64,000 nt of DNA from Nocardioides jensenii JCM 1364 = NBRC 14755 (GTDB lineage: Bacteria; Actinomycetota; Actinomycetes; Propionibacteriales; Nocardioidaceae), in contig NZ_BCRJ01000075.1 of the NCBI RefSeq assembly GCF_001552535.1, positions 1 to 64,000 on the forward strand, in the 5' to 3' direction. Numbering within the stretch: the stretch's first letter is position 1; each line of letters begins with the position of its first letter. Under the pieces are notes generated by a model that made no database searches, was not told the DNA's origin, and worked only from the letters and a program-made list of their open reading frames with translations. Shown piece after piece: positions 15,246 to 53,135 of the stretch. The translations under genes were made by a program, and so were the position numbers.

Positions 15246-15252
15246 GCTGCGC

Positions 15253-16486: not shown

Positions 16487-16508
16487 CCGAGGTGTCGGTG
16501 GCGTCGCC

Positions 16509-16514
16509 TAGGTT
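16509..16514 (+). promoter_or_regulatory. -10 element of radA
   Basis: TAGGTT lies 7 nt upstream of the radA ATG at 16522. There is no Shine-Dalgarno sequence, so the start is leaderless. Confidence 0.6.
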
Positions 16515-16521
16515 GTGAGAC

Positions 16522-25794: not shown

Positions 25795-28428
25795 ATGAGC
25801 AACGAGGCGCGTCCCCTCTTCTCGATCGTGAGCGCCGTCTACAACGTCGCTCCCTATCTGCCCGACTTCATCGCCTCGATCGAGCGTCAGACCCACGAGC
25901 TCGACGACGTGGAGATCCTGATGATCGACGACGGGTCCACGGACGAGTCGCCCCGTCTCCTCGCCGAGTGGGCGAACAGTCGTCCCCAGACCGTGCGGGT
26001 CATCACCCAGGAGAACGCCGGCCAAGGAGCCGCTCGCAACGCCGGCATCAAGGCCGCCCGCGGCCAGTGGATCACGTTCCCCGACCCTGACGACGTCGTC
26101 AACGACAAGTACCTCCAGGTGGTGGCCGGCTTCCTCGAGGCGCACCCCGATACGCACATGGCCGCAACGCACCGACTGATCTGGAACGAGGCTGAGGACA
26201 AGCTCACCGACCGGCACCCGCTGCGCTCGATGTTCCACGCCAACCCGTACGTCGACCTGTCCCTCAACCCCGAGAGGTTCCACGGCAGCTCGCCTGCGAC
26301 TTTCTTCCGGCTCGACCGGATCCGTGACCTCGACCTGGAGTTCGACGGTCGCATCCGGCCGAACTTCGAGGACGGTCACTTCAACTCCCGCTACCTGCTG
26401 AGCTTCGAGCAGCCGCGGGTCGGGTTCCTCGACGCCGCCCGCTACCACTACCGCAAGCGGGCCGACGACAGCTCCACCCTGCAGACCGCGCAGGCACATC
26501 CAGGCCGTTACAACGTCGTGCCCGAGCTCGGCTACCTCGACCTGGTCAAGCGAGCACGCGAGCTGCACGGCCAGGTGCCGCGCTGGCTGGAGTCCTTCCT
26601 CCTCTACGAGCTGCACTGGTACTTCAAGGCGACGGACTCCCACGCGGCCTCCACGGGCCGCCCGCAAGGGGGGCCGATCACGGATGAGTTCCACGCCGTG
26701 GCCGCCGAGATCCTCGGACAGATCGACGTCGACGAGGCGTTGCGCTACGTCCCGCCGTCGGTGCCCGGGCAGACCCGGCTGATCCTCGCGCACGGCTACG
26801 ACGACCAGCCGTGGCACGACCCGTTCGTGCACCTCAAGAAGTTCGATGTCGACCAGGTGATCGTCAAGGCGTCGTACTTCTACACCGGCGAGCTTCCGAC
26901 CGAGGTGTGGCGTGCCAACGGTGAGCCGATCGAGCCGCTGCACTCCAAGATCCGCGACCTCGAGTTCTACGGGCGCACCTTGATGCACGAGCGTTCGGTG
27001 TGGCTGCCCGCCAACCGATCCCTGCAGCTCGACCTCGACGGCGCCGCCGTCGACATCGTCTACGAACGCCCTTACGGGCCGACCAGAGTCGCTCCACCCG
27101 GTCAGATCCGCTGGTTCGGCAGCCCGCTGTCCCAGCGCGCTCGCAGCCGGATCCCGAAGCACCTGCAGGTCAAGAAGCCCGAGTCCAGGCAGGGCAAGAT
27201 CGCCCAGAAGCTGATGCGGACGCCGCAGGTTCGCAAGAAGTATGCCGACGCCTGGGTCCTGATGGACCGAGTGCACGACGCGGCCGACAGTGGCGAGATC
27301 CTGTTCCGCTACCTGCGCGCCAACCACCCCGAGATCAACGCCTGGTTCGTCCTGGAGAAGGGCGGCAAGGAGTGGGAGCGGTTCCGCAAGGAGGGCCACG
27401 GCGACCGTCTCGTCGCCTACGGCTCGCTCCAGTGGCGGCTGCTGCTCGCACACGCGAAACACCTCTTGTCGTCCCACGCGGACGCGGCTGTGGTGGCGCC
27501 GGCGGAGATCACTGAGTTCACGCCCCGCAACTGGCGCTTCCACTTCCTGCAGCACGGCGTCATCAAGGACGACATCTCATCGTGGCTGGACCCCAAGGAG
27601 ATGGACACCTTCGTGGTCAGCACTCGCCAGGAGATGGCCTCGATCGCCGGCGACCACACGCCGTACGTCTTCACCACCCGCGAGGTCGCCCTGACCGGAC
27701 TGCCGCGGTTCGACCGGCTGCGCGAGGTCGGCCTGCGGTTCCCCCCCGACAAACGCGATCTGCTGCTGGTCACCCCGACGTGGCGAAACGGCTTGCTGCC
27801 CCCGGTGATCAAGGGCAGCCAGCGTCGCGAACTCGACAGCTCGCTGCTCGAGTCCGACTTCGTGCAGCAATGGATGTCCTACATCTGCGACGAGAAGCTG
27901 GCCGAGGCGTGCACCCGACACGGGCTGAAGCTCGGATTCCTGCCGCACCCGAACCTCCAGCCACTGCTGCCGATGATGGAGCTGCCCGACCACGTGCTCC
28001 CGCTCTCCTACGAGGGTGGTGACCCGCAGGAGCTGTTCGCCCGCGCCCGCGCCGTGGTCACCGACTTCTCCTCGATCGCGTTCAACGCCGCCTACCTGCA
28101 GCGTCCCGTCGTCTACTTCCAGTTCGACGCCGACACCGTGCTCGGAGGTGGCCACGTCGGCCGGGCCGGCTACTTCGAGTACCCCCGGGACGGCTTCGGC
28201 CCGGTCGAGGAGGACAAGGACTCAGCGGTGGCCGCCACCATCGAGGCCCTCGACCACGGCCCGGACCCGCTGCCGGCGTACCAGGCCCGCATCGACGCCA
28301 GCTTCCAGGAGCGCGACGGCAAGTGCTGCGAGCGGGTCGTGGCCCACGTGCGGCTGACCGAGGGCAACCGGTCCCGGTTGCCCGCCGAGCCGACCCCGGC
28401 GATGCCCGAGACGGCATCGCGATCATGA
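25795..28428 (+). CDS. GT2 glycosyltransferase fused to TagF-type glycerophosphotransferase
   Basis: Protein of 877 residues with two enzyme domains. The N-terminal GT-A/GT2 domain (about 8-240) has DDGST at 45-49, NAGQGAARNAG and the metal motif DPDD at 97-100. The C-terminal CDP-glycerol glycerophosphotransferase domain (about 480-850) has LQHGVIKDD, TPTWR, HPN and VTDFSSIAFNAAYLQRPVVYF. Expected role: add a sugar and polymerise glycerol- or ribitol-phosphate in wall teichoic acid-like chains at the inner membrane face. Its stop overlaps the DUF6270 gene by 4 nt. Confidence 0.88.
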   Translation: MSNEARPLFSIVSAVYNVAPYLPDFIASIERQTHELDDVEILMIDDGSTDESPRLLAEWANSRPQTVRVITQENAGQGAARNAGIKAARGQWITFPDPDDVVNDKYLQVVAGFLEAHPDTHMAATHRLIWNEAEDKLTDRHPLRSMFHANPYVDLSLNPERFHGSSPATFFRLDRIRDLDLEFDGRIRPNFEDGHFNSRYLLSFEQPRVGFLDAARYHYRKRADDSSTLQTAQAHPGRYNVVPELGYLDLVKRARELHGQVPRWLESFLLYELHWYFKATDSHAASTGRPQGGPITDEFHAVAAEILGQIDVDEALRYVPPSVPGQTRLILAHGYDDQPWHDPFVHLKKFDVDQVIVKASYFYTGELPTEVWRANGEPIEPLHSKIRDLEFYGRTLMHERSVWLPANRSLQLDLDGAAVDIVYERPYGPTRVAPPGQIRWFGSPLSQRARSRIPKHLQVKKPESRQGKIAQKLMRTPQVRKKYADAWVLMDRVHDAADSGEILFRYLRANHPEINAWFVLEKGGKEWERFRKEGHGDRLVAYGSLQWRLLLAHAKHLLSSHADAAVVAPAEITEFTPRNWRFHFLQHGVIKDDISSWLDPKEMDTFVVSTRQEMASIAGDHTPYVFTTREVALTGLPRFDRLREVGLRFPPDKRDLLLVTPTWRNGLLPPVIKGSQRRELDSSLLESDFVQQWMSYICDEKLAEACTRHGLKLGFLPHPNLQPLLPMMELPDHVLPLSYEGGDPQELFARARAVVTDFSSIAFNAAYLQRPVVYFQFDADTVLGGGHVGRAGYFEYPRDGFGPVEEDKDSAVAATIEALDHGPDPLPAYQARIDASFQERDGKCCERVVAHVRLTEGNRSRLPAEPTPAMPETASRS

Positions 28429-30865: not shown

Positions 30866-30928
30866 GCCCCCGAGGTCTCTGAGTCCCGGGCCGCTACTCT
30901 TGCTGCTCCATCCCGCAGTGAGGTGTTC

Positions 30929-32866
30929 ATGACGGTGCCCGATGTCAGTGTGATCATCCCGGCGTACAACGCGTTGCCCTGGTTCCACCGTTGCCTGGAC
31001 TCGCTGGAGGCACAGACCATCGGCACCGACCGGATGGAGATCATCGTCATCGACGACGGGTCCACCGACGGGACCGCGGAGGAGATCGACCGGCGGGCGC
31101 GGGCCACGGAAGCGCTCTACCGGGTCGAGCACCACCCCGCGTCCGGCGGCCCCGCTGGGCCGCGCAACCGTGGTCTGGACATCGCCACCGGCCGCTACGT
31201 CTACTTCGTCGACGCTGACGACTACCTCGGCGTCGAAGCGCTGGAACGCCTGGTCGCCGTCGCCGACAGGGAGGGATCCGACGTCGTCGCGGGCAGCCTG
31301 GCCAGTGACTCCGAACGCGGCGTCGGCGCATCGGCATTTCGCAAGACGGATCTGGACGCCGACCTCTTCACCTCCCAGGCCTACTGGTCCATCTCTGTCC
31401 TCAAGCTCTACCGGCGGAGCATGCTGGAGGAGCACAAGATCAGGTTCCCCACCGAGTTCCCGGTGCTCAGCGACCAGCCGTTCGCGGTCCTCGCCTACCT
31501 GCGCGCCGCCAAGATCAGCCTCCTCGCCGACTACGAGTACTACTGGGTCGTCCTGCGGGATGACGGTGGCAACATCACCTACTCCGGCAAGGCCGCCAGC
31601 CGGGTCGACGTCATCGAGTCGATGTGTGCCCTGCTGGTCCGCGAGGTGCCCGATCCCGAGAACCGGGGCCGCCTGCTGGCCCGACACTTCCAGCTCGAGC
31701 TGCAGCGCGTCCTCCTGGCTCTTCCTGAGCTCGACCCGGCCGAGCAGCGAGAGCTCATGGCCCGGATCCGCGCCCTCGTCGAGGAGCACCTCACCCCGCC
31801 CGTCGCGACGTGGCTCAGCCCCGACATGAGACTGCTCTACCACCTGGTCGGCCGCGGCCTTCACGACGAGGTGGTCACCGCCGCCGCCGACGAGTCGGTG
31901 CGGAACAGGTCCTGGAAGGTCGGCATCAGCGACGGTCGGGCTCACGCCCTGCTGCCCTTCTTCCGCGATGCAGCCGTCGGGGTCCCCGACGAGGTGTACG
32001 ACGTCACCGAGCGGTTCGGGTTCAGACAGCACCTGACGTCCGTCTCCTGGAGCGGGGCGACCCTGCATCTGGAGGGCGTAGCAACCTGGGACCGGGCACC
32101 CGCCGATTCCGTGGGCACCGTGACGGTGCGTCTGCACAGTCGCGACGATCCCGGGACCGACCACCTCGTGACGGCTCGACGAGGGGAGGACGACACGTTC
32201 CGAGCCGACCTCGACACCCTCGCTCTCGACGGCGACCGGCTGCATGACGCGATCTGGGACGTCTACACACAACTGACCCACGAGGGCCTCACCCGGGAGC
32301 AACAGGCACGGCTCGACGAAGACGCGATCTCCGGAGACCAGCCCTTCCTGCACTGGGAGACCACGGACGGCTGGACCGTCGCGTCCTACCTCAGTCCCGG
32401 CCGGCGCCTGAAGCTGGACGTCGGGCAGCAGAAGCACCGCGTCGGCAAGATGCTGCGTGACTGGCAGGTCTCCTGGCAGACCGGGGACCTGGTGGTCGAA
32501 GGCCGGCTCGACCTCGACCTGGATGCGCCGTTGAGTCTGATCGCCCGGGGTGACGCCGGCTCGGTCGAGCACGAGGTGGCGCTCTCCGCCGGGGAGTTCA
32601 GCGGACGGATCCCGGTCGGCGGCCTCGAGCCCGGCAGATGGACGATTCGGCTCCGTGCCGGACTGCCCCCGCACCACGAGAGGTTCCCGGTTCCGGCGCC
32701 CACCGGGCTGGGCAGCCACACCACGGGCAAGGGGCTGCGACAGGTCGTCACGGAGGCGGTCACCCTGAAGGGTGGCAAGCTCGCCCTTGACGTCGCTGCG
32801 TCGAGCCCACTGCGATCGGTGACCCAGGCGCTCCGCCAGCGGGGCGCGGGCCAGGAGAAGCCCTAG
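30929..32866 (+). CDS. GT2 glycosyltransferase with long C-terminal extension
   Basis: Protein of 645 residues. The GT-A domain covers about 1-230, with DDGST at 42-46 and the metal motif DADD at 95-98. Residues beyond 330 form a second region with no catalytic motif that I recognise, predicted as beta-rich; TarS/TarP-type wall-teichoic-acid glycosyltransferases have comparable linker and trimerisation regions. No transmembrane segment. The start at ATG 30929 follows GAGG; a -10-like TACTCT lies at 30895-30900. It probably decorates the polymer made by the TagF-type enzymes. Confidence 0.83.
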   Translation: MTVPDVSVIIPAYNALPWFHRCLDSLEAQTIGTDRMEIIVIDDGSTDGTAEEIDRRARATEALYRVEHHPASGGPAGPRNRGLDIATGRYVYFVDADDYLGVEALERLVAVADREGSDVVAGSLASDSERGVGASAFRKTDLDADLFTSQAYWSISVLKLYRRSMLEEHKIRFPTEFPVLSDQPFAVLAYLRAAKISLLADYEYYWVVLRDDGGNITYSGKAASRVDVIESMCALLVREVPDPENRGRLLARHFQLELQRVLLALPELDPAEQRELMARIRALVEEHLTPPVATWLSPDMRLLYHLVGRGLHDEVVTAAADESVRNRSWKVGISDGRAHALLPFFRDAAVGVPDEVYDVTERFGFRQHLTSVSWSGATLHLEGVATWDRAPADSVGTVTVRLHSRDDPGTDHLVTARRGEDDTFRADLDTLALDGDRLHDAIWDVYTQLTHEGLTREQQARLDEDAISGDQPFLHWETTDGWTVASYLSPGRRLKLDVGQQKHRVGKMLRDWQVSWQTGDLVVEGRLDLDLDAPLSLIARGDAGSVEHEVALSAGEFSGRIPVGGLEPGRWTIRLRAGLPPHHERFPVPAPTGLGSHTTGKGLRQVVTEAVTLKGGKLALDVAASSPLRSVTQALRQRGAGQEKP

Positions 32867-32918: not shown

Positions 32919-33968
32919 TCAGTCCCTGCGGGCCTCGACCACACGCCTGCGGATTCGACCAGCCGACCTGCGGGCCCGGCTTCCGGCCCTGCGGAGCGGG
33001 CTGACCGACAAGCGGGCGACGTCCTTCTCGAGGGCGGCGATGCGCTTGCGGGATTCGATGTTCTCCGCGTGCGCGGTGCGGGCGAGCCGGTGAAGCTCGT
33101 CGATCCGCCGGCCGAGCTGCGACTCGGTCTCACAGGCGGCCAGATCCTTGTCACTCCACGGCTCAGCGGCCTCCGTGCGGGAGAAGTCCCAGAGATGACC
33201 GAAGCGGTCGAAGTCATCGGCATACAGCTCTTCGATGCGCTCGCGTACCCCGTTCTCGAAGAGCGCCCCGATGGGCCGTAGTGGCGTCGGGTTCGCACGT
33301 GGGACGTGCACCTCACCGTCGTATCCGACCTTCTCCACGTGCTCGGAGAGATCGCTCGTGAGCTGCTTGAACTCGCCGATCTCATAGATGCGGGTGTAGG
33401 GGATCGCGTGCTCGATCAGCATGTCGACCTGCCCACGGAAGTGCGGGTCTCGACGGAGCATGTGCTCGGGTTCGTTCTCGAAGAAGGCAACGAACTTTGC
33501 GAAGTCCTCGATGACGCTCTCGCGGGTGAGTGGATGACGCGGGTACCAGTCCCGGTTCCTGAACTGCGTGATGTGCGGGTTCTCCATCAGGACCTTGTTC
33601 TGCCAGGCGGAGAACAGGCGGAGCCTCGGGTCACGCACGACCGCGAAGATGAACCAGTCGTTGTCGGGGCGAATCTCGGCCCGCTGTTCTGCGGTCAGCT
33701 GGTTCAGACGTGGAGACACCTGCCACAGGTCACGGTTGTGCACAGCCTCCGAGTCCGCGATGTAGCCGCTCCAGCCGGCCTTGAAGGTGGAGAGGTCTTC
33801 CCCTGCAAGGTCCGCCATCATCCACTTCAGACTGGTGCAGGCGTTCTTGTTCAACGACTCGAACATCACCTTGGCCTCGGGTGCGAGGTAGGTCCGCAAG
33901 ACCGCGCCGGGCACGTCACGCATCGCTTGGAACATCGCGTCGTCCGGCGTTGACAGTTCCTCGCTCAT
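32919..33968 (-). CDS. Sulfotransferase family 2-like protein (second of three)
   Basis: Protein of 349 residues. NKNACTSLKWM (40-50) is the 5'-phosphosulfate loop in the form seen in carbohydrate sulfotransferase family 2 (HNK-1/heparan type), and VVRDPRLRLFSAW (111-122) is the 3'-phosphate motif. The C-terminus is a coiled coil followed by a very basic Arg-rich tail. No signal peptide. The start is chosen from a minus-strand leaderless -10 (TATGCT, 33976-33981). It faces the GT2 gene and lies just after the coaX operon. A sulfated surface glycan is the likely product. Confidence 0.75.
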   Translation of the reverse strand: MSEELSTPDDAMFQAMRDVPGAVLRTYLAPEAKVMFESLNKNACTSLKWMMADLAGEDLSTFKAGWSGYIADSEAVHNRDLWQVSPRLNQLTAEQRAEIRPDNDWFIFAVVRDPRLRLFSAWQNKVLMENPHITQFRNRDWYPRHPLTRESVIEDFAKFVAFFENEPEHMLRRDPHFRGQVDMLIEHAIPYTRIYEIGEFKQLTSDLSEHVEKVGYDGEVHVPRANPTPLRPIGALFENGVRERIEELYADDFDRFGHLWDFSRTEAAEPWSDKDLAACETESQLGRRIDELHRLARTAHAENIESRKRIAALEKDVARLSVSPLRRAGSRARRSAGRIRRRVVEARRD

Positions 33969-33975
33969 GACCGAA

Positions 33976-33981
33976 AGCATA
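33976..33981 (-). promoter_or_regulatory. -10 element of second sulfotransferase
   Basis: Minus-strand TATGCT lies 7 nt upstream of the ATG at 33968, inside the 31-nt gap after coaX. It separates this gene's expression from the coaX operon. Confidence 0.5.
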
Positions 33982-39911: not shown

Positions 39912-40667
39912 ATGAGCACCACCAGTCTCGGCATGCCCGCACTGCCGCCGCGCACCGCGCAGCCGACCTGGAAACAGGCCTGGGACACCGCGCTCTACGG
40001 CCCCGACGGCTACCTCCGCGCCCACCCGGTGACGCTCGAACGCGACCGCGACGAGCTGGTGGAGTTCCTGCTCCCCCGGCTGCGCGACCACGCGTCCGTC
40101 GCCCTGCTCGGGGCCGCCGGCACGCTTGCCGCGACACTCTCCGGCCTGCTGCCCGACGTCTCGCTCCGCCCCGACGTCCCCACCGGTTTCACCGGCGTCG
40201 TGATCGCCGTCGACTGGCTCTCGCACGTGCCCACCCACGTCGTACAGGCAGATGACGACGGGCGCCCGCGGATCGTGCACGTCGACCCGATCTCCGGCCA
40301 GGAGTCCCTGGGCCTGCTGCTCTCCGACCCCGGCGTCCCGCCGACGCTGCGCGAGTGGCAGGAGCAGCACTGGCCGCTCAAGGCCGACTTCGCCCGCGCC
40401 GAGATCGGCACCACCCGCGAGGCCGCGTGGCGCGACGTGCTCCGCTGCCTGGAGTCCGGGGAGGCGATCGCGATCGAGAACGGGCACCTGAGCGGCGGTC
40501 GCCCCGAGGCCGGCTCACTACGCGCGGCCGGCGACCTGCCGACGATTCCCGACGGCACGCGTGACCTGTGGGCCGACGTCGCCCTCGACGCCCTCGTCGA
40601 TGCCTGTGGCGGCACGCCGGTCACCGGCGACGGCCCCGAGCGCGTCGAGTGGGTGGCCCATGGTTGA
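39912..40667 (+). CDS. Shortened MidA-like methyltransferase family protein
   Basis: Protein of 251 residues. ALYGPDGYLRAHPV near the N-terminus and ENGHLSGGRPEAGSLRAAG near the C-terminus match the start and the GRPxGTLRAY signature of the MidA (COG1565) methyltransferases. MidA proteins are usually 350 residues or more, and the SAM-binding GxGxG is replaced by LLGAAGTLAATL, so activity is uncertain. Its end overlaps the next GT2 gene by 8 nt, so the two are co-translated although their roles look unrelated. Confidence 0.6.
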   Translation: MSTTSLGMPALPPRTAQPTWKQAWDTALYGPDGYLRAHPVTLERDRDELVEFLLPRLRDHASVALLGAAGTLAATLSGLLPDVSLRPDVPTGFTGVVIAVDWLSHVPTHVVQADDDGRPRIVHVDPISGQESLGLLLSDPGVPPTLREWQEQHWPLKADFARAEIGTTREAAWRDVLRCLESGEAIAIENGHLSGGRPEAGSLRAAGDLPTIPDGTRDLWADVALDALVDACGGTPVTGDGPERVEWVAHG

Positions 40668-42630
40668 TCCGGGCAGGCTACGACGAGTCGTACGCCGACG
40701 CCGGGCCGCGGGCAGTCCCGTACTCACCGTGGTGATCCCGGTGCACAACGTGGAGGCCTACCTGCCCGAGTGTCTCGACAGCGTGCTGGGCCAGGCGTTG
40801 GACGAGATCGAGGTGATCGCGGTCGACGACGGCTCCACCGACGGTTGCCCTGAGATCCTGCGGGAGCGGGCCCGGAAGGACCCTCGCCTGGTCGTGCTGA
40901 CCCAGCCGAACGCGGGTCAGGGTCCCGCCCGCAACCTGGCCGTGACGCGGGCACGCGGCGAGTTCCTCACCTTCTGCGACGCCGACGACACCGTGCCGCC
41001 CAGAGCCTGGGCGCACATGGTCGAGGTGCTCCGTGAGACCGGATCCGACTTCGTGGTCGGCGCCGCGCGACGCGTCGCCAACGGCGAGAACATGGGGATC
41101 GCCTTCCGCGCTGCTCACGAGGTGACCCGACTGCGCACCACGATCGAGGAGTCCCCGGTCGCGATGCAGGACATCATCGCCTGCAACAGGGTCTTCCGGA
41201 CCCGTTTCTGGGTCGACCGGGTGCCGCCGTACCGCGGTCACATCGCCTATGAGGACCACGTGCCCGGGCTGGCCGCCTACGTGCGCGCCAAACGTTTCGA
41301 CCTGATCACCAACGTCACCTACCTGTGGCGGGTCCGCGAGGACAACACGTCCACCGGCCAGCAGAAGGCGAAGCTGGAGAACCTTCTGGACCGCATCGCG
41401 GTCAAGGAGGAGGCCAGTGACCTGCTCCGGGAGGAAGCCTCCCCCGCCGTGTACGCCGCCTGGGTGGCCCGTTGTCTCAGCGTCGACTTCCCGCCCTTCA
41501 TCACCCACGGCATCGACGGTTCGCCGATGTATCGCAACGTCCTGAGCGCGACCTACCGCACGTTCCTCGACCGTACCGACGAGGCGACGCTCCAGTCCGT
41601 GCCGCAGTTGAACCGGCTCCGGGCCCGACTGTGTGCCGACGGGCGGTGGGACGAGCTCGCCACGATCGGCGAGCGTCTGGAGACCCAGGGGCGGCTCCCT
41701 CGCACGCAGGCACGCGACGGCGAGGTGTACGCCGTCCGGGACGCTCTCGGCGCCGATCTTCCCGACGCGCTGTGGCGGATGGCCGACTCCGAGTCGGGTG
41801 TGATCGCCGGGGTGCGGTCGGTCTCTGCTGCCGAGGGTCGCCTGCGGATCTCGGGGTTCGCCGCGATCCGTACGCTCGACTGCTCGCTCGAGGTGCCCAG
41901 GATCGAGGCGTGGCTCCAGGAGGCGTCCGGCGACGCAACGGTCCCGCTGTCGGTCTCCGGATTCCGCGACCCCGCGGCCAACGTGTGGACCCGGCACCGC
42001 AACGCCGGCTACGACAACGCCGGGTTCCGTGCCGAGCTCGACGCGGCTGACCTCACGGGCCGAGTCGCCGTCGACGCGATTCCGTGGGTGTTGCACGTGC
42101 GCGTCACCCAACACGGTGTGGTGCGTGAAGGCGTCGTGCGGGCGCCCGTCGAGGGCTCAGCGGGCAACCATCTCTCCACGCTGGCCGTCGGCGAGGTGCT
42201 CGTGACCCCCGCGTTCTCGGGCGACCTGGGCTTCCACCTCACTGCCGCGGCCGCCTCAGACCGACCCGACTCGGGCACCCCCGGCCCGGCGATCGTGGCG
42301 GACGCCGTGATCGACGCAGAGATCGATGCGGGAACGGTCTGGCTGACGACGGACCGCCCTGATCACCCCCGCCCCGGAGTGCTGCGAGGAAAGGCCGGTG
42401 AGATCGAGGCGGCAACCGTCGAGGACGACACCGAGGGCCGACCTCGCGCGGGCTACCGCGTCGCCGACCTCGCCGACGGCGACCATCGCGTGGTGTTCCA
42501 GGGCGCCGAGGCGGTTGCCGGGCCCGGACTGTGGGAGCAGCTTCCTGTCGTGTCCATCGACGATGCCGAGCGTGTGCAGGTGCTGGTGCGCCGCGACGGC
42601 GCCCTCGTGGTTCGCGTGACTCGCCCCTGA
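40660..42630 (+). CDS. GT2 glycosyltransferase with beta-rich C-terminal half
   Basis: Protein of 656 residues. After a basic start, the GT-A domain (about 20-240) has VVIPVHNVEAYLPECL, DDGST at 56-60, NAGQGPARN and FCDADD with the metal motif at 107-110. Helical and beta-rich regions without recognised motifs follow. The layout equals that of the GT2 gene in the first island (30.9-32.9 kb). The start overlaps the preceding gene by 8 nt. It likely acts on the same class of wall polymer; acceptor and donor are unknown. Confidence 0.82.
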   Translation: MVDPGRLRRVVRRRRAAGSPVLTVVIPVHNVEAYLPECLDSVLGQALDEIEVIAVDDGSTDGCPEILRERARKDPRLVVLTQPNAGQGPARNLAVTRARGEFLTFCDADDTVPPRAWAHMVEVLRETGSDFVVGAARRVANGENMGIAFRAAHEVTRLRTTIEESPVAMQDIIACNRVFRTRFWVDRVPPYRGHIAYEDHVPGLAAYVRAKRFDLITNVTYLWRVREDNTSTGQQKAKLENLLDRIAVKEEASDLLREEASPAVYAAWVARCLSVDFPPFITHGIDGSPMYRNVLSATYRTFLDRTDEATLQSVPQLNRLRARLCADGRWDELATIGERLETQGRLPRTQARDGEVYAVRDALGADLPDALWRMADSESGVIAGVRSVSAAEGRLRISGFAAIRTLDCSLEVPRIEAWLQEASGDATVPLSVSGFRDPAANVWTRHRNAGYDNAGFRAELDAADLTGRVAVDAIPWVLHVRVTQHGVVREGVVRAPVEGSAGNHLSTLAVGEVLVTPAFSGDLGFHLTAAAASDRPDSGTPGPAIVADAVIDAEIDAGTVWLTTDRPDHPRPGVLRGKAGEIEAATVEDDTEGRPRAGYRVADLADGDHRVVFQGAEAVAGPGLWEQLPVVSIDDAERVQVLVRRDGALVVRVTRP

Positions 42631-45447: not shown

Positions 45448-47586
45448 TCAGCGTTTGGCGACGGCCTTCTGGACCATCGGCACCAGGTCCTGACCCAGGA
45501 ACGGGCCGAGCGTCTCGGCGTACGTCGCGGTGATGTGCGAGGCGTCGAAGTAGACCCCGACTCCGCCGACGGCGACGTCGCAGAACTTCGGGCCGCAGAT
45601 GTAGTCGGTCAGGTCGATCACCGACACCAGTGGATCGTCGAGCTTCTCGGCGGCGTTGACCAACGCGTCGTTCGGCACCCAGTCATCGCGCAGCCCCGTG
45701 CAGGCGCCCAGCCCGTCCTCGTTCTCGGCAATGCACTCGGGACCCCGGACGTCGTCGACTCCGGGCGTCGGCGTGTCATGGATGACCACGACCCGCTGGC
45801 CCTGGTCGATCCAGTCGGCGAGGTAGTCCTGGTAGCCCTGCTCCCACAACTCCTGCTCGTTGCCGTCCACCGCATCGACGGGCTTGCGCCCGTTGCGTTC
45901 GGAGGTGACCACGACGTCGAAGTCGCCCTCGGCGGTCAGGTCGAGGACCCGCTGACCCCAGTCGAGACAGCCCTGGGAGTCCTCGTCGGTCTTGAAGTCG
46001 ACCTTCGTGCGGGTCGCGGTGCACTCGGAGGCAAGGATCGTGGTGATGTGCCAGCCCTGGTTCTCGGCGACGACCTGCAGGGCCGGCAGCCAGTGGCCGG
46101 CGTGGGAGTTGCCGACCAGGGCGATGTGAACGTCGGAGGACTCGTCACCGTACTCACAGGTCTTGACCCCGTCGAACGGGACCCATTCCCAACAGCCGTC
46201 ACGGTAGGCGTCGGACTTGTCATCGATGGCCAGGTTGGGCGCGGGGACCACCGGGCCCTCCTTGGTGCGCGGGCAGTCCTCCTCGCGGTTGGCCAAGGTC
46301 TTGGCACCGAAACAGGGGTCGTCACTGTCCTTCGCGGCGATCAGCTCCTGGCGGGCCAGGTCCTGCTGCTTGTCGAAATAGCGGTCGAGCGTGTGAGCCA
46401 TGCCCCAGACCAGTCCCATCGCGAGCACCATCGCGACGTACGGCTTCCACAAGGGCGTGCGGAACCTGGCCCGTCGGAAGACGTCCTCGATGAAGAACTT
46501 CGTCAGCGTCGCGAGCACGAGGGTGGCCACGAGGATCGCGAGCTTGTTCTGCAGCGTCAACTGGTGACCGGTGGCCTGCGGCACCAGCACCACCATCGGC
46601 CAGTGCCAGAGGTAGACCGAGTAGGAGATGTCACCGAGGAACTGGATCGGCTTCCACGCCAGGATCGGACCGGGCGAGTGCCGCTTCAACGGGGCGTCGA
46701 CAGCGATCACGGCGACCGTGCCCAGCACGGGCAGCAAGGCCTGCCACCCCGGGAACGGCGTACCGCCGGTGTAGGTGAACGCGGTCAGCGTGATCGCCCC
46801 GAACCCGATCCAGGCCACCGCCGACCGCGCCGCCTCGGGGATGAGTACGTGCTCGTGGTCGACATCGCGGCCGAACGCGCGCCGTGACAGCAGGCCGGCG
46901 AGCAGGCCGCCGAGCCCGAGCTCCCAGATGCGGGTGGGCGTGACGAAGTAGGCACCGGCCGGGTTCGAGGCGGTCTCGGTGATCGAGTAGACCAGCGAGG
47001 CGGCCACGGCCAGGGCCAGGCCGGGTACGACGACGCGGGTGGCCGGCCGCTTGAGCACGCGGGCCAGCAGGAAGAGGAGCAGCAGCAGGACCGGCCAACC
47101 GAGGTAGAACTGCTCCTCGATCGAGAGCGACCAGTAGTGCTGCACGGGCGAGGGTGCCGCCTCGGCGCCGAGGTAGTCGACCGAGCTGGAGGCGAGGTTC
47201 CAGTTGACGTAGTAGAGCGTCGCGGCCTTGATCTCGGCGGCCGTGCTGCCCCACTCGGTCTCGGGGGCGAACATCCGGCTGCCGACGACGGTCAGCGCCA
47301 GCACCAGCAGCGACGCCGGCAGGAGTCGTTGGATCCGTCGCGCCCAGAATCCCAGCAGGTCACCGGCCTTGGTGGGCGGGTGCGCCAGGAGGTGCGAGGT
47401 GATCAGGAATCCCGAGATGACGAAGAAGACGTCGACACCGACGAAACCACCGGTCATCCGGTTCGGCCACAGGTGGAAGAGGAACACCAAGCTGACCGCG
47501 AGGGCCCTCAGCGCCTGGATGTCGGTGCGGACCGTGGTGGTGGTCGACTGCGCCGACTCTGCTCGCGAGCTCAGGGTGTCGGACAC
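45448..47586 (-). CDS. OafA-type acyltransferase with SGNH domain
   Basis: Membrane protein of 712 residues that transfers acyl groups, usually acetyl, to cell-surface glycans. The N-terminal acyltransferase_3 domain (about 20-370) has DIQALRALAV, a roughly ten-helix core and the active-site His region FHLWPNRMTGGFVGVDVFFVISGFLI. A periplasmic linker leads to the SGNH domain with VALVGNSHAGHWLP and a late DASH (block II and block V). The GTG start has GAAGG upstream; minus-strand TATCCT (47622-47627) is the likely -10. Suited to O-acetylating the island's polymer. Confidence 0.9.
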   Translation of the reverse strand: MSDTLSSRAESAQSTTTTVRTDIQALRALAVSLVFLFHLWPNRMTGGFVGVDVFFVISGFLITSHLLAHPPTKAGDLLGFWARRIQRLLPASLLVLALTVVGSRMFAPETEWGSTAAEIKAATLYYVNWNLASSSVDYLGAEAAPSPVQHYWSLSIEEQFYLGWPVLLLLLFLLARVLKRPATRVVVPGLALAVAASLVYSITETASNPAGAYFVTPTRIWELGLGGLLAGLLSRRAFGRDVDHEHVLIPEAARSAVAWIGFGAITLTAFTYTGGTPFPGWQALLPVLGTVAVIAVDAPLKRHSPGPILAWKPIQFLGDISYSVYLWHWPMVVLVPQATGHQLTLQNKLAILVATLVLATLTKFFIEDVFRRARFRTPLWKPYVAMVLAMGLVWGMAHTLDRYFDKQQDLARQELIAAKDSDDPCFGAKTLANREEDCPRTKEGPVVPAPNLAIDDKSDAYRDGCWEWVPFDGVKTCEYGDESSDVHIALVGNSHAGHWLPALQVVAENQGWHITTILASECTATRTKVDFKTDEDSQGCLDWGQRVLDLTAEGDFDVVVTSERNGRKPVDAVDGNEQELWEQGYQDYLADWIDQGQRVVVIHDTPTPGVDDVRGPECIAENEDGLGACTGLRDDWVPNDALVNAAEKLDDPLVSVIDLTDYICGPKFCDVAVGGVGVYFDASHITATYAETLGPFLGQDLVPMVQKAVAKR

Positions 47587-47621
47587 AAACAGCCTTCCGG
47601 CGGGACAAAAGAACGTCGGTC

Positions 47622-47652
47622 AGGATAACCGCCGACCCCGGCATGCCACTAT
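47622..47652. promoter_or_regulatory. Divergent promoters, acyltransferase and sulfotransferase
   Basis: Minus-strand TATCCT (47622-47627) would start the acyltransferase transcript about 30 nt before its GTG. Plus-strand CACTAT (47647-47652) lies 7 nt before the leaderless sulfotransferase GTG at 47660. The gap is 73 bp. Confidence 0.5.
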
Positions 47653-47659
47653 TCAGTGC

Positions 47660-48754
47660 GTGTCGACCCAGAACGAGATCCCCGGATCCCCACCCGCCTC
47701 CAGCGTCACCAAGCGTCTGCTGCTGGTGACGGGCTCCGGGCGCAGCGGAACCAGCACCGTGGCCGGGGCGCTCAACCACCTCGGCATGCACGTGCCGCGC
47801 CCGGTGCTCAAGCCGAACGACTCCAACCCTCGCGGATTCTTCGAGTCGACCTGGCCGCTGCGGTTCCACCGACGGCTGATGGACGACGCCGGGATCGCGC
47901 AGACCGACGCCCGGCCCGAGGCGCTGGCCCTGATGCAGTCCAGCGTGACTCCCGAGGTGAGGGCCGAGCTGGTGTCCTGGCTCCGCAGGGTGGCCGACAA
48001 GGCCGACCAGTCCGTGGTCAAGGATCCACGCTCGGCGTGGGTCCCGGACCTGTGGCGCGAGGCCGCCGCCGAGGCTGACATCGATCTCTCCTTCGTCACG
48101 ATGCTGCGCCACCCTGCCGAGGTGGTCGGCAGCCGCAGCACGCACTACACGAAGTCCGAGGAACGCGTCGGGGCCTGGAAGTTCGCGGTGATGAACCTCG
48201 CGGCCTGGGTGAACCAGAACCTCAACGCCGAGAGGCTGACCCGCGGCCACCACCGCGCCTGGTTGCGGTACGACGACCTCCTGGACGACTGGCGCCGTGA
48301 GATGGAGAAGGTGCGCCGCATGTCCGGCGTCGAGTTCAACCACTCGCTGGAGCGCGGGGTCCCGCACGAGGTGGACTCGTTCATCGATCCGGCCCTCCAG
48401 CGGCACCGGCTGCGCTTCGAGGACCTCGATCTGCCCGACTCGCTGTGTGCCATCGCCGAGGAGATCTGGTCCGCCGGCGGCGTGTTGGCTGACCGCAACG
48501 GCCAGGACGCCGATGCGGAGGCCCGCTTCGACGCGGCGGCCGCTGCCTATGCCGGCCTGTTCCGCGCCTCCGCCGCCATCGCCGGCGACGAGACGGCGGC
48601 ACGGGTACGTCAGGCCCGCGAGCATCTGACCGCGAAGCTGTCCCGGGAGGCAGACGCAGCCGAGCCGTCGGCCGATGAGGCGCAGTCCCGTCCCCGGCGA
48701 GAGCCAGGTGTACGCAGTCGGCTGCGGCGATGGCTCCCGCGCCCGCGTCGCTGA
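47660..48754 (+). CDS. Sulfotransferase-like protein (third of three)
   Basis: Protein of 364 residues. LLLVTGSGRSGTSTVAGAL (21-39) is a P-loop-like 5'-phosphosulfate site. VVKDPRSAWVPDLW and MLRHPAEVVGSRSTHY supply the R..P...S type 3'-phosphate motif. No signal peptide; basic C-terminus. It starts at GTG 47660 behind a leaderless -10. It lies between the OafA-type acyltransferase and the CDP-ribitol-type synthase, so the substrate is probably a glycan or its precursor. Nucleotide-kinase-like P-loop proteins are an alternative. Confidence 0.72.
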   Translation: MSTQNEIPGSPPASSVTKRLLLVTGSGRSGTSTVAGALNHLGMHVPRPVLKPNDSNPRGFFESTWPLRFHRRLMDDAGIAQTDARPEALALMQSSVTPEVRAELVSWLRRVADKADQSVVKDPRSAWVPDLWREAAAEADIDLSFVTMLRHPAEVVGSRSTHYTKSEERVGAWKFAVMNLAAWVNQNLNAERLTRGHHRAWLRYDDLLDDWRREMEKVRRMSGVEFNHSLERGVPHEVDSFIDPALQRHRLRFEDLDLPDSLCAIAEEIWSAGGVLADRNGQDADAEARFDAAAAAYAGLFRASAAIAGDETAARVRQAREHLTAKLSREADAAEPSADEAQSRPRREPGVRSRLRRWLPRPRR

Positions 48755-48789
48755 ACGCGCTGGCTGGCTGCACCGGGGCGGTCAGCGTC

Positions 48790-48795
48790 TATCCT
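48790..48795 (+). promoter_or_regulatory. -10 element of cytidylyltransferase-SDR gene
   Basis: TATCCT about 50 nt upstream of the GTG start at 48846, which has GAGGAG close upstream. Implies a short 5' leader of about 45 nt. Confidence 0.4.
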
Positions 48796-48845
48796 GTGAC
48801 CCGTCGCCCGGGGACGGCGGCGTGGGTCCGACCTCGAGGAGCTTG

Positions 48846-50246
48846 GTGAAGAACATCGCAGTACTCCTGGCCGGAGGCGTCGGCGCACGCGTCGGTCTCG
48901 ACATCCCCAAGCAGCTGATCAAGATCGCGGGTCGGCCGATCATGGAGCACACGCTCGCCACCCTCGACGCCCACCCGTTGGTCGACGAGATCATCATCCT
49001 GATGGCCCAGGGCCACCTCGACGCGGTGCACGCGATGATCCGCACCGGCGGCTACACCAAGGTGACCCAGGTCCTCGAGGGCGCCGAGACCCGCAACGAC
49101 ACCACCCTGCGGGCGATCCGTGCCCTGCCCGACGAGGAGGCGAACCTCCTCTTTCACGACGCGGTGCGCCCGATGGTCACCGACCGGATCATCACCGACT
49201 GCTTCAAGGCCCTCGAGACCTACGACGCCGTCGACACCGCGATCCCCTCGGCCGACACGATCGTCGAGCTCGACGAGCACGGCATCATCAGCAACATCCC
49301 ACCGCGAGCCCGCCTGCGCCGCGGCCAGACTCCGCAGTGCTTCAAGGCATCGGTGATCCGCCGGGCGTACGACGAGGCCGGGCGCGACCCGAACTTCGAG
49401 GCCACCGACGACTGCACCGTCGTGCTGCGCTACACCCCCGACGTACCGATCGGGATCGTCGCGGGCGACGACCGCAACATGAAGGTCACCGAGCCGATCG
49501 ACGTCTACCTGGCCGACAAGCTCTTCCAGCTGACCTCGACCGACCTGCCCGCGCCGCGCACCGACGACGAATACCGTGAGGCCCTGGCCGGCAAGACCCT
49601 GGTCGTCTTCGGGGCGTCGTACGGCATCGGCCTCGACATCGTCGAGCTGGCCCGCTCCTACGGCTGCACCGTGCACGGGTTCAGCCGCTCCGGCAGCCGC
49701 ACCCACGTCGAGCGCCGGGAGGACGTCGCCAAGGCCGCCCGGCAGGTGATGGAGTCCGAGGGCCGCATCGACTTCGTGGTGAACACCGCCGGGGTGCTCC
49801 CTCGTGGCGACCTCGCCGAGACCTCGGAGGAGACGATCTACGCCGCCACCGAGATCAACTACCTGGCCCCGATCCTGATCGCCCAGGAGTTCCACCCCCA
49901 TCTGGTCGCCTCCGGTGGGTCACTGCTGCTGTTCACCTCGTCGTCCTACACCCGCGGGCGCAGCGGCTACTCGCTCTACTCCTCCGCCAAGGCGGCGGTG
50001 GTGAACCTCACCCAGGCGCTGGCCGACGAGTGGGCCGGGCAGGTGCGGGTCAACTGCATCAACCCCGAGCGCACCGGCACCCCGATGCGCACCAAGGCGT
50101 TCGGCGAGGAGGACCCCTCCACCCTGCTGGAGTCCACCGTCGTGGCGACCGCCGCCCTCGACGTGCTGCTTGCCCGCCAGACCGGACACGTCATCGACGT
50201 GCGCAAGTCCGACCCCCTGGCCGGTCTCACCGACGACGAGATCTGA
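48846..50246 (+). CDS. Cytidylyltransferase-SDR fusion, probable CDP-ribitol synthase
   Basis: Bifunctional protein of 466 residues. The N-terminal IspD/TarI-type domain (about 1-225) has AVLLAGGVGARVGLDIPKQ and the VTEPIDVYLADKL end motif. The C-terminal short-chain dehydrogenase (about 238-466) has VVFGASYGIGLDI, NTAG and YSLYSSAKA, with the YxxxK pair. Haemophilus Bcs1/Acs1 has this fusion and makes CDP-ribitol from ribulose 5-phosphate, so the product should be CDP-ribitol for the TagF-type polymerases. GTG 48846 follows GAGGAG. Only 3 nt separate it from the converging TagF gene. Confidence 0.86.
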   Translation: MKNIAVLLAGGVGARVGLDIPKQLIKIAGRPIMEHTLATLDAHPLVDEIIILMAQGHLDAVHAMIRTGGYTKVTQVLEGAETRNDTTLRAIRALPDEEANLLFHDAVRPMVTDRIITDCFKALETYDAVDTAIPSADTIVELDEHGIISNIPPRARLRRGQTPQCFKASVIRRAYDEAGRDPNFEATDDCTVVLRYTPDVPIGIVAGDDRNMKVTEPIDVYLADKLFQLTSTDLPAPRTDDEYREALAGKTLVVFGASYGIGLDIVELARSYGCTVHGFSRSGSRTHVERREDVAKAARQVMESEGRIDFVVNTAGVLPRGDLAETSEETIYAATEINYLAPILIAQEFHPHLVASGGSLLLFTSSSYTRGRSGYSLYSSAKAAVVNLTQALADEWAGQVRVNCINPERTGTPMRTKAFGEEDPSTLLESTVVATAALDVLLARQTGHVIDVRKSDPLAGLTDDEI

Positions 50247-50249
50247 CGC

Positions 50250-53135
50250 CTACGGGAAGAGCAGGTCGACCGCACGAGCCGCCGAGCGACCGTCCTGCCA
50301 CGCGTTGTAGGTCGCGTTGAACTCGTCGATGGCCGGCGCCCACTCGGTGGCCAGCGCCGCCACGTCCCGCACCAGCTCGATCACCTCGTCGGTGGTCTCC
50401 ACCAGCGGACCGGGCGCCGAGTTGGTGAACGGGAAGAGGAAGCCCCGCTTCTCGTCGGAGTAGTCGACCAGGTCGGGCACCAGGAACACCATCGGCTTGC
50501 CGGTCAGGGCCATGTCGAAGCGGAGCGACGAGTAGTCGAGCACGGCCACGTCCGCGGCCAGGATCAGGTCGTTGATCTCGGGGTACGCCGACACGTCGAG
50601 CACCCGGGCGCCCGAGCCCGGCGGCTGGTGGAACCGGTGGCCGCGCAGGAGCACGACGTGATCGGGCCCCAGGCGGTCGGCCAGGCGGGCCACGTCGAGG
50701 TGCTGGTGCAGGGGTGCGGCCCGGTAGTTCGTGGCCAGGTCGTCGCGCCACGTGGGGGCGTAGAGGATCGCGTTCTGCCCCTCGCCGATGCCCAGTCGTT
50801 CGCGGGCCTGGTCGCGCAGTGCGGCGGCCTCCGGTCCCACGAGCACGTCGTCACGCGGATAGCCCTGGTTGAGGTAGGTGCCGTCGAAGCCGTACTGCTC
50901 GCGATAGTGCAGCTCCATCTCGGGGCTGGGCACGCACGCGACGGTCCACTGGTGAGCGGTGTTCTCGAGCTGTTGCTCGATGCGCAGGGGTGAGAAGTTC
51001 TTGTCGCGCCACAGGCCGACGCCCATCGCCTTCGACGGGTAGCCGTGGAAGGTCTGCACCAGGCGTTGACCGGGTCGGGTGCGGAAGAACCGGTTCATCT
51101 CGATGTTCGTCACGACGGTCCCGGCTCGGGCGAGGGCGTCGTACCAGGCCCGGCTGCGGATCAGCACCGCCCGGCTCCCCGAGGGCGCGGGCACGCTGTG
51201 GTCGGCCACGCCCCACACCGGACGCAGGTCGGGCCGACGCCTGCGCAGCTCCTCGAAGATCGCCCGCGGACTGTCCGTGGTCCCCGAGCCGGCATAGGAG
51301 TGGAAGACGACCAGATCGGGGTCGATCGGCCCCCGCGAGGCTGCATGGGCGGCGCGCAACCGGGTCTGGGCCCAGGGGCCGAGCTCGTCCTCCCGCAACG
51401 GCGCGGCCAGCTCCACCAGCACCTGGTCGCGCAGGCCGCGCAGCAGCCGGACCCGGTGGCTGCGGGTGATCCGCTCCCGCGGCGTCTGCGAGGCGACCTT
51501 GGGAGGCATGGGCAGGTCGCCGCTCGCGTGCGCCGAGGCCCACACGAAGTGCCAGGTGCCGCTGGGCAGCGGGCGGGGCGGCAGCTTCCACGGTCGGTGC
51601 CGCAGAGGTACGACGGCCGTGAAGTCACGGCCGTGGGTGGTGACCTTGGCCTCGACCCTCCAGTCGCCGTGACGGAGCTCGAGGGAGAAGTCGGCCGAGG
51701 TCATGCCGTGCAGCACCAGCGTCTCGCCCAGCTCGACCGACGTCACGACAGGTGCCGGCTCGGGCTCGGGCCGCGGGGCCGCCTTCTCCCCGCGGATGAT
51801 CCGGAACCCGTGGCGGGTGTCGAACGCGGCGCGTGCGGTGAGCCCGATGTCGGGCACCCCGGCCGAGCCCCGGGGGTCACGGTGCGTGGCGCGTCCCCAC
51901 AGGGTGACCCCTCCGACCGTGACGCCGATCTCCAGCGCCCAGGGCCCGTCGATGGTCAGCCAGGCCGGGTCGACGGCGATCTCGAGGCCCGCGGCGTCGT
52001 GGTTCTGGTGGGCCTGACGGAAGAAGCGGGTGGCGGCCCGGTCGGGCCTGCTCTCGGGGGTCAGTGCCACGCGCGCACCGGTGCGCGCGTGGGCCATGCG
52101 GGCGCGGAACTGGGGCGGGTGCTCGGAGAAGTCGATCCACCGGCAACCGGCGAAGACGGTCAACCGCACCAGGTGCCCGTCACGACGCACCCGCCGCAAC
52201 GAGACCTCGAGCCGCGGTCGGATCTCGAGCACGTCTTGAGGGACGTCGACTCCCGGCACCGGGAGGAGTGCGAAGACCCGCTCCCCCACCAGTCGGGTGG
52301 GGTGCTGCTCCTCGTCGAACCAGCGATCGGCGGTGAACCGGCTCATCGCCTCACGGTGGCCGTGGGCGACCAGCCACAGCCGGACCCTGGTCTCCACGGG
52401 AACGTCGAGGTGACGCGCGCGAGGCAGGGCACGCCACGCTGTCGCCACCGCCTGGCCGAACGCGTCCGCGTCGGCCGCCGAGGCGTGCTCCAGGTCGTCG
52501 AGGAACGCCCCGGACTCATCGCGCAGGACCTGCACCAGGACGTCGGCCGAACTGAGCCCGGAGAGCATCCAGGAGAACGCGACGATCTCGTCGGCCGTTG
52601 CCGGCACCGTGCCGAACGGTGTGGCCCACGTGCGATCGGTGTTGCGGGTGGTCACCTCCGCAAGCTCGCGGGCCGCGGACTCGAGGGCCGACTGGCCGAA
52701 CCGGCCGTGCACGTCGAGGAACTCAGGGGCACTGCGTCGTCGCCACAGGCGGGAGCCCAGGGTTCCGCCGCGCCCCGAGACCGACTCCTCGGTCGCGGTC
52801 AGCTCCCCCAGCAGCAGGGCGAGAGCTCCGTGCTCGAGGGTCTCGGTGGCCTCCAGATGGAGGAGCGTGTCGCTCACGGTGGCCGCCGTACCGGAATTTC
52901 GGGCACCGTTGCCGGTCTCGGCGGTGGCCAGGACGCGTGCCCCCTCGATGGCCTGGAGGTCGTCGGCCCGGACGCCGCCCCACGGACAGAGCACGATCTC
53001 GTCGGCGGCCTCGTCCTGGGCAGCCAACGATGCCATGGCCTCCCCGAGGTGCCGAACCTGACGCGGACCGACGGTGACCACGACCGCCACGGACGTGCGC
53101 CGACGGCGCACCGCGCGGCGCACCCGATCCAGCAC
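50250..53135 (-). CDS. TagF-type polyol-phosphate transferase with degenerate GT2 domain
   Basis: Protein of 961 residues. The C-terminal CDP-glycerol glycerophosphotransferase domain (about 590-955) is intact: TFHGYPSKAMG, YAPTWRDD, LLRGHRFH and VLDYSSLRFDMALTGKPMVF. The N-terminus (about 14-230) looks like a GT2 fold but is degenerate: NGARNSGTAAT is kept while the metal DxD is EATE (95-98). The middle is beta-rich. Minus-strand TAGGCT (53178-53183) and GGGAGG precede the GTG. Likely polymerises ribitol- or glycerol-phosphate using CDP-ribitol from the converging gene. Confidence 0.84.
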   Translation of the reverse strand: MLDRVRRAVRRRRTSVAVVVTVGPRQVRHLGEAMASLAAQDEAADEIVLCPWGGVRADDLQAIEGARVLATAETGNGARNSGTAATVSDTLLHLEATETLEHGALALLLGELTATEESVSGRGGTLGSRLWRRRSAPEFLDVHGRFGQSALESAARELAEVTTRNTDRTWATPFGTVPATADEIVAFSWMLSGLSSADVLVQVLRDESGAFLDDLEHASAADADAFGQAVATAWRALPRARHLDVPVETRVRLWLVAHGHREAMSRFTADRWFDEEQHPTRLVGERVFALLPVPGVDVPQDVLEIRPRLEVSLRRVRRDGHLVRLTVFAGCRWIDFSEHPPQFRARMAHARTGARVALTPESRPDRAATRFFRQAHQNHDAAGLEIAVDPAWLTIDGPWALEIGVTVGGVTLWGRATHRDPRGSAGVPDIGLTARAAFDTRHGFRIIRGEKAAPRPEPEPAPVVTSVELGETLVLHGMTSADFSLELRHGDWRVEAKVTTHGRDFTAVVPLRHRPWKLPPRPLPSGTWHFVWASAHASGDLPMPPKVASQTPRERITRSHRVRLLRGLRDQVLVELAAPLREDELGPWAQTRLRAAHAASRGPIDPDLVVFHSYAGSGTTDSPRAIFEELRRRRPDLRPVWGVADHSVPAPSGSRAVLIRSRAWYDALARAGTVVTNIEMNRFFRTRPGQRLVQTFHGYPSKAMGVGLWRDKNFSPLRIEQQLENTAHQWTVACVPSPEMELHYREQYGFDGTYLNQGYPRDDVLVGPEAAALRDQARERLGIGEGQNAILYAPTWRDDLATNYRAAPLHQHLDVARLADRLGPDHVVLLRGHRFHQPPGSGARVLDVSAYPEINDLILAADVAVLDYSSLRFDMALTGKPMVFLVPDLVDYSDEKRGFLFPFTNSAPGPLVETTDEVIELVRDVAALATEWAPAIDEFNATYNAWQDGRSAARAVDLLFP

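Follow-up and report, generated by a model that had tools for sequence, protein, structure and literature searches.

A TagF-family protein with a degenerate N-terminal glycosyltransferase-like region in Nocardioides jensenii and its relatives in Actinomycetes

Introduction

In the capsule polymerases Cps1B and CslB, a single polypeptide joins an N-terminal GT-A glycosyltransferase (GT) domain to a TagF-like one, with the TagF histidine pair conserved; Cps1B mutants dead in either GT-A or TagF make no polymer singly, and when mixed they restore wild-type synthesis in trans (PMC5974469). A natural relative of this arrangement is present in Nocardioides jensenii JCM 1364 = NBRC 14755, where a 961-residue protein is encoded on the reverse strand at positions 50250-53135 of a 64,000-nucleotide stretch of contig NZ_BCRJ01000075.1 (the window). 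Its TagF domain is apparently competent, as judged by catalytic residues, and its N-terminal region is a degenerate family 2 glycosyltransferase (GT2), a combination that recurs in a clade of Nocardioidaceae proteins termed type A. Both domains of Cps1B and CslB are active and their dead forms are engineered, whereas here the GT site is lost in a natural clade and the TagF site in some of its partners.

Three further systems are close. The TagF domain of the 961-residue protein aligns with residues 350-713 of S. epidermidis TagF (SeTagF; PDB 3l7i), whose own N-terminus (residues 4-111) is GT2-like and matches the profile of the clade (i-E 4.6e-5), which suggests that the classic TagF polymerase may also have begun as a GT2-TagF fusion. 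SeTagF keeps the motifs NDGSTD and DADD, whereas the type A clade has lost both and has a longer middle region. In H. influenzae type b, the TagF-like ribitol-5-phosphate transferase of the Bcs1/Bcs3 system receives its substrate from a CDP-ribitol synthase; Bcs3 differs in its partner domains (a phosphatase and a ribose-phosphate transferase) and in having Gly where the type A clade has Pro (PMC10299916). In S. griseus, TagF (SGR_4957) and TarIJ (SGR_4956) have consecutive locus tags and ribitol phosphate is seen in the wall by nuclear magnetic resonance (PMC13274773), so that there, too, an actinobacterial TagF gene lies near a CDP-ribitol synthase gene, in a species with ribitol-phosphate wall teichoic acid.

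Type II wall teichoic acid synthesis is little known, and the involvement of TagF-like polymerases is described as still to be seen (Litschko et al. 2018). The fusion architecture is itself known, one database record being named bifunctional glycosyltransferase family 2/CDP-glycerol glycerophosphotransferase, as is the GT2-like N-terminus of TagF. In the literature searched, whose coverage leaves out most subscription journals, no listed paper dealt with TagF proteins that have a dead GT or with pairs of reciprocal kind, and neither a pseudo-GT shared by a whole clade nor the recurrence of such pairs appeared there. We give a little better than an even chance to the reading that the 961-residue protein belongs to the TagF family and acts as a polyol-phosphate transferase in a locus for wall teichoic acid; that its N-terminal pseudo-GT is a kept remnant of an ancestral two-headed GT2-TagF polymerase, most likely with a structural or docking part; and that sugar is added by other proteins, the product of window gene 40561-42630 being the natural candidate. 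The polyol phosphate transferred is probably ribitol-phosphate.

Catalytic residues of the two domains

The open reading frame is confirmed at 50250-53135(-), with a GTG start codon; Nocardioides sp. Root140 has a protein 81% identical to its product and a similar gene order. The frame is organised as follows.

50250..53135, reverse strand: type A protein (GT-dead, TagF-alive), 961 residues, consisting of a pseudo-GT2 region, a middle region and a TagF domain
52782..53099, reverse strand: degenerate GT2, nucleotide-binding half of a GT-A fold, residues 13-118 (jackknifed hidden Markov model, six-row AF2 model, Foldseek and VIA-align matches)
52977..52985, reverse strand: PWG where the DDG sugar-nucleotide site is expected, residues 51-53 (alignment)
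52890..52904, reverse strand: ARNSG, the surviving piece of NxGxxxARNxG, residues 78-82 (alignment)
52842..52853, reverse strand: EATE where DSDD, the DxD metal site, is expected, residues 95-98 (alignment)
51336..52403, reverse strand: middle region, residues 245-600, with no Pfam match and with a first part common to the family
50256..51341, reverse strand: TagF (PF04464) domain, residues 599-960 (Pfam; alignment with SeTagF 350-713)
51045..51047, reverse strand: H697 in FHGYP, counterpart of TagF H444 (alignment)
50637..50639, reverse strand: H833 in RGHRF, counterpart of TagF H584 (alignment)

The PF04464 match covers residues 599-960 (E 1.1e-81; 275 bits against a curated cut-off of 22.1), and the catalytic histidines of SeTagF, H444 and H584, are both present as H697 and H833. 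Bifunctional polymerases of the GT-A/TagF-like kind are defined by two active sites; here the TagF residues are in place and the GT-A residues are gone. A preliminary description of the locus, made from the sequence alone, had reported EATE at the metal site of a GT2-like N-terminus, and this is borne out by the alignment of residues 95-98 with DSDD of intact relatives. It had also held that the NxGxxxARNxG pattern is kept, which is true of ARNxG and not of the remainder (AETGNGARNSG as against NGGLGAARNTG in the alignment). Two losses had escaped it: the nucleotide-binding Asp (VDDG to CPWG, residues 50-53) and the presumed acidic base.

These losses extend through the clade. A search of 147 genomes of the genus found a family match in 56 and gave an alignment of 59 members, from which L044_2-1384, cut by a contig end, was omitted; members are classed as type A (GT-dead/TagF-alive), B (both alive) or C (GT-alive/TagF-dead). 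GT-intact relatives keep the nucleotide Asp in 21/21, each of the two DxD Asps in 21/21 and the presumed acidic base in 19/21. In the type A clade the corresponding counts are 0/36 (position 51), 1/36, 1/36 and 3/36, with one conserved Gly kept in 2/36 and one invariant Arg in 0/36. Both DxD Asps occur together in 0/36 rows. The DxD survey that had been suggested as a check thus finds the pair missing from all 36 alignable clade rows, which come from 35 genomes, and sequencing error or a recent frameshift is therefore rejected. With four catalytic positions nearly all lost in the clade, the proposal of a pseudo-glycosyltransferase domain on a TagF-type enzyme appears sound. Other conserved positions, Q40, G53, D98 and G116 among them, are retained in 31-34 of the 36 rows.

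Some GT-A enzymes function without a DxD metal site, and the N-terminal domain is under purifying selection (see below), so that a glycosyltransferase still working without DxD might be envisaged. We consider this highly improbable: the sugar-nucleotide Asp, the DxD Asps, the acidic base and the invariant Arg are each kept in 0-3 of 36 rows, and the 961-residue protein lacks about 100 residues that most clade members have.

Homology and fold of the N-terminal region

Taken alone, the N-terminus of the 961-residue protein is unmatched by Pfam, by phmmer against the PDB and by a hidden Markov model (HMM) of intact relatives at E 1e-3. GT2 homology is supported by a jackknife in which the three-row subclade of this protein and its two closest relatives was held out of the HMMs, with 1000 shuffles as control. 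With the HMM built from the rest of the clade, the N-terminus reaches 37.6 bits and the highest-scoring shuffle 8.1; with an HMM limited to DxD-intact GT2 domains, the corresponding scores are 18.7 and 8.4 bits. In addition, hhalign of the three-row subclade against the intact set gives 98.2%, the training rows for both methods being taken from one alignment that also contained these three proteins. Across the clade, PF00535 is matched by 14/17 N-termini at E<=0.1 (best E 6.2e-14), and a profile of clade N-termini retrieves GT-A enzymes from the PDB (best E 4.3e-17).

The structure prediction proposed for residues 1-230 gives a divided answer: residues 13-114 are predicted to be GT-A-like, and the rest is poorly modelled. 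A two-row AF2 model is poor (mean predicted local distance difference test score, pLDDT, 43). In a six-row model, 10-residue block means are 66-90 over residues 11-110 and mostly below 50 from residue 115 on; its input includes aligned GT2 paralogues from the window, a possible bias towards GT-A, of which the HMM jackknife is independent. Foldseek and VIA-align show this model to resemble GT-A enzymes over residues ~13-133 among the matches listed, with VIA-align Z of 11.6 for WrtF and about 9.4-9.6 for TarS, TarP and RmlT. IspD cytidylyltransferases, which have the same nucleotide-binding fold, come near the GT-A scores (Z 9.8 versus 11.6), and the match therefore supports a common nucleotide-binding fold more than a GT as such. 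SeTagF is absent from the best 50 matches listed in either search, which excludes nothing. Thus, the model supports the nucleotide-binding half of a GT-A-like fold and not the second half, and the GT2-like fold attributed to the N-terminus holds as homology and, as a predicted structure, over residues 13-114.

The region before the block shared by the family is ~245 residues long in the 961-residue protein and its two nearest relatives and ~340 in most clade members; the ~100 residues missing lie between the nucleotide-binding half and residue 245. This bears on a suggestion of the preliminary description, that the remnant is retained to bind the acceptor chain, since a dead GT domain could retain acceptor contacts. 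In GT-A enzymes, acceptor binding belongs to the part beyond the nucleotide-binding half. It is the nucleotide-binding half that is conserved here, whereas what follows it is shorter and has a poor model; an acceptor-binding role therefore seems improbable.

Phylogeny of the loss

A tree of TagF domains separates the three types, a single branch setting off each of A (37 rows, 98% bootstrap support), B (13 rows) and C (7 rows); L040_5368, which lacks a GT region, is included in A as GT-dead. A tree of the GT domains, which includes the trait's own columns, agrees and places 36 A rows together in 100% of bootstraps. When 40 stretches from a family search are added to the genus rows, the A clade grows to 54 rows from six Nocardioidaceae genera, with a Shimodaira-Hasegawa-like approximate likelihood ratio (SH-aLRT) of 100 by a quick method. 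The dropped or weak rows of this 133-row set are L053_17431, an open copy of L001, and the fragments L109_4322, L109_4767 and L113_16537, which were omitted from the tree. The 54-row clade comprises 47 GT-dead rows, 7 with no readable DxD site (3 of them cut by contig or stretch ends) and no GT-intact row. The best reading is therefore an ancestral loss, at the base of the clade rather than within the 961-residue protein, which is best read as one of the clade's most shortened forms.

GT loss is also found outside the A clade, in L112, L153 and L167/L169. Sampling at the level of the class comprised 20 loci from 19 of 39 matching genomes among 197 searched. On a hand-picked 60-row tree (39 of the 133 rows plus 21 class-level and plasmid rows), the history of GT loss takes 6 changes, with well-supported branches forcing at least 5, and that of TagF loss also takes 6, with at least 6 forced. 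Four rows (L157, L159, L163 and L165) owe their GT-dead label to weakly aligned N-termini (21-30 bits), and GT loss takes 4 changes when they are omitted.

The preliminary description had taken an intact fusion elsewhere in the window to suggest that the protein derives from that architecture and has lost GT activity:

25795..28428, forward strand: type D GT2-TagF fusion of 877 residues (the 25.8-kb protein), DxD intact, QHG in the TagF domain

Descent from a GT2-TagF fusion stands; this protein as the point of reference does not, and it is rejected as parent. In the TagF-domain tree its TagF domain sits very far from the others, on a stem of 3.7 changes per column, and its GT domain lies at 4.95 from that of the 961-residue protein, compared with 3.68 for GT2-TagF fusions and 3.77 for the 40561-42630 type, distances based on few columns and long branches. 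The nearer GT-intact relatives are GT2-TagF fusions of ~1130-1240 residues and the 40561-42630 GT2 protein of the window itself. The 25.8-kb type occurs in 16/147 genus genomes (E<=1e-60), of which 9 belong to the 37 that have an A member. A QHG motif is associated with hexose-phosphate transferases (PMC11666461).

Constraint on the dead domains

The GT-like region is under purifying selection. Among close A pairs, its ratio of nonsynonymous to synonymous change (dN/dS) is 0.07-0.28 in 9/10 and 0.56 in one. A dead TagF domain, that of one C pair, has 0.21, compared with 0.06-0.20 for live TagF domains. Selection would thus be keeping a domain whose normal mode of binding sugar nucleotide and metal would be lost, and its likeliest function is in structure or docking.

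A GT2 remnant without a role, decaying beside a TagF domain that alone matters, is an unlikely alternative with some observations in its favour: the short N-termini of the 961-residue protein and its two nearest relatives (~245 versus ~340 residues), a dN/dS of 0.28-0.40 in the dead region of the window pair, and L040_5368 with no GT region at all would each fit decay. The low ratios in 9 of the 10 pairs argue against it, as does the contrast between the lost catalytic positions and several other conserved ones that 31-34 of the 36 rows retain.

Partner genes and reciprocal pairs

The window holds a further member of the family:

40561..42630, forward strand: type C relative, 689 residues, intact GT2 (VDDG, DADD), no TagF domain (PF00535; motifs; homology)

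The nearest relatives of this protein (P0003), besides its counterpart in L001, are C fusions (GT-alive/TagF-dead) of other genomes. Within the 54-row clade, a GT-alive family member lies within 12 kb of 30 A rows; one row has a TagF protein only, and 23 have no partner in the fetched stretch, some stretches being shortened by contig ends. The partner's TagF domain is dead or absent in 11 of the 30 (L039, L046, L049, L050, L063, L070, L071, L096, L097, L001 and the window); in loci of the L046 or L049 type the A and C genes are adjacent. Conversely, a TagF-alive neighbour stands beside 12/12 TagF-dead/GT-alive rows of the 133-row set, versus 28/47 both-alive rows; because the rows are related, the comparison does not count as independent evidence.

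Three more pairs of this reciprocal kind, checked by visual inspection of an alignment, occur in L112 (another Nocardioidaceae genus, HGTP group) and in L167 and L169 (another family, f17). This brings to 14 the loci that combine a GT-dead/TagF-alive gene with a gene, no more than 8 kb away, for a GT-alive protein with a dead or absent TagF domain, and these pairs fall in three separate places of the tree. L153 (family f19), with a GT-dead gene and a TagF-altered gene cut by the stretch end, was left out of the count. It appears from these comparisons that a two-in-one enzyme has split more than once into two complementary halves.

Several related arrangements were also observed. The reciprocal neighbours in actinomycete family f17, which stand apart from the window clade on the tree, are at L167:5103-12972 and L169:2502-9156. 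Both catalytic sites look dead in four GT2-TagF relatives (L105:1454-4105, L116:14292-16967, L117:1416-4070 and L099:2958-5972), each within 12 kb of a TagF-alive relative. In L119, a two-gene TagF-family unit (802 and 1088 residues) is present twice in one stretch, at 2385-8035 and 11126-16776.

Polyol-phosphate transfer and the donor

The best PDB match of the 961-residue protein by phmmer is the polymerase TagF. Its top NCBIfam match is TarF (NF041712) at 166.9 bits, below the cut-off of 550, and TarL (NF041713) reaches 78.3 bits, below a cut-off of 1000. The TarF match and the presence of a second PF04464 protein in the genome, at 25.8 kb, would fit a TarF/TagB-like primer or linkage-unit transferase, which supplies the initial polyol phosphates and leaves polymerisation to another enzyme. 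This is a quite unlikely role, given that the TarF cut-off is not reached, that the best PDB match is a polymerase and that, of the 37 genus-sample genomes in which the clade occurs, only 9 have the 25.8-kb type. A polymerising polyol-phosphate transferase remains our preference, and its donor is suggested by the adjacent gene:

48675..50246, forward strand: IspD fused to a short-chain dehydrogenase/reductase (SDR), CDP-ribitol synthase-like, convergent with the 961-residue gene with 3 bases between (Pfam)

Against NCBIfam, the fusion best matches TIGR00453 (ispD; 169.4 bits, cut-off 181.3), followed by NF001183 (ribitol-5-phosphate cytidylyltransferase; 156.2 bits, cut-off 166), both under the cut-off. 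Ribitol-5-phosphate cytidylyltransferases hold ranks 2 and 3 among its PDB matches. The fusion is present in 37/37 genus-sample genomes with a placed A member versus 5 of the other 110, a count that omits six genomes in which IspD alone was matched (E 1e-65 to 1e-74) and places among the 110 the genomes with only weak TagF matches, most of which were not fetched. Presence in 42/147 genomes is more easily read as an accessory role than as that of a housekeeping IspD. Among genomes with fetched loci, the fusion accompanies a HG[Y/N/V]P TagF in 61/62 Nocardioidaceae genomes versus 5/15 with HGTP, HGSP or HGIP only. Two class-level HGTP TagF genes (L152 and L154), with no visible GT domain, also lie within 4 kb of an IspD-SDR gene, and HGYP versus HGTP is not claimed as a ribitol/glycerol code. 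A TagD-type CDP-glycerol synthase does not discriminate: the best score in the genome, 116 bits, is below the 165.4-bit cut-off, and 12/14 control genomes also have a match to the model. On this evidence CDP-ribitol is the moderately probable donor of the 961-residue protein.

Other genes of the locus

A further glycosyltransferase of the window is TarS-like:

30923..32866, forward strand: GT2 with a TarS linker domain (domain match)

The teichoic acid locus also contains sulfotransferase-family genes at 32919-33980 and 47228-48754. Relatives of the latter recur beside type B polymerases (L035, L037, L038, L059, L072, L088, L090 and L092), and sulfated wall polymers are possible. An acyltransferase-3/SGNH fusion lies at 45448-47586, and several other loci have a relative of it close to a TagF gene.

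Discussion

In the simplest model, types A and C would extend a single chain, A with ribitol phosphate and C with sugar, and the dead domains would be retained for assembly. We infer such cooperation for the 961-residue protein and its 40561-42630 sister, which kept its GT and lost its TagF domain; together they would replace one two-headed polymerase. By analogy, A and C pairs would be a natural counterpart of the complementing Cps1B mutants. A type A protein without a partner may make plain poly(ribitol phosphate), to be decorated by TarS-like enzymes, which are found near some A genes (L047, L054).

Several observations weigh against this reading. First, the absence of DxD is by itself no proof that a GT-A domain is inactive, and some clade members, such as L040_5368, have no detectable GT domain. 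The window/L001 pair is also less constrained than most (dN/dS 0.28 and, in the next segment, 0.40). Second, the 40561-42630 gene sits 7.6 kb from the 961-residue gene, and the 23 of 54 clade rows without a partner in their stretches mean that the GT partner is possibly dispensable in places. Third, the residue after HGx is Pro in glycerol-phosphate transferases and Gly in ribitol-phosphate ones (PMC10299916), and by this rule HGYP, with Pro at the TagF P447 site, points to glycerol. Finally, no separate IspD was found in the genome, where the fusion scores 172 bits and the next match 34.8, nor is there another near disA or clpC in the window. IspD is required for isoprenoid synthesis by the methylerythritol phosphate (MEP) route, and the fusion might therefore serve that route instead of, or besides, CDP-ribitol synthesis.

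A broader reading, which is tentative and on the whole doubtful, is that two-headed GT2-TagF polymerases of Actinomycetes repeatedly become obligate pairs through duplication and reciprocal inactivation, the dead domains serving as mutual scaffolds so that the heteromer rebuilds one polymerase. The window would then represent a late stage, one partner having dropped its dead TagF domain and the other retaining a shrunken dead GT.

These actinobacterial loci, with GT2-TagF fusions near IspD-SDR genes, offer natural counterparts of the engineered single-domain mutants. They open two matters to direct test: which enzyme makes wall polymers of the glycosyl-polyol-phosphate kind, and what preserves GT and TagF domains that are catalytically dead. 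Glycans on the ribitol teichoic acid of Streptomyces influence susceptibility to umbrella toxins (PMC13274773); changes in the wall-polymer machinery may therefore be relevant to competition between bacteria.

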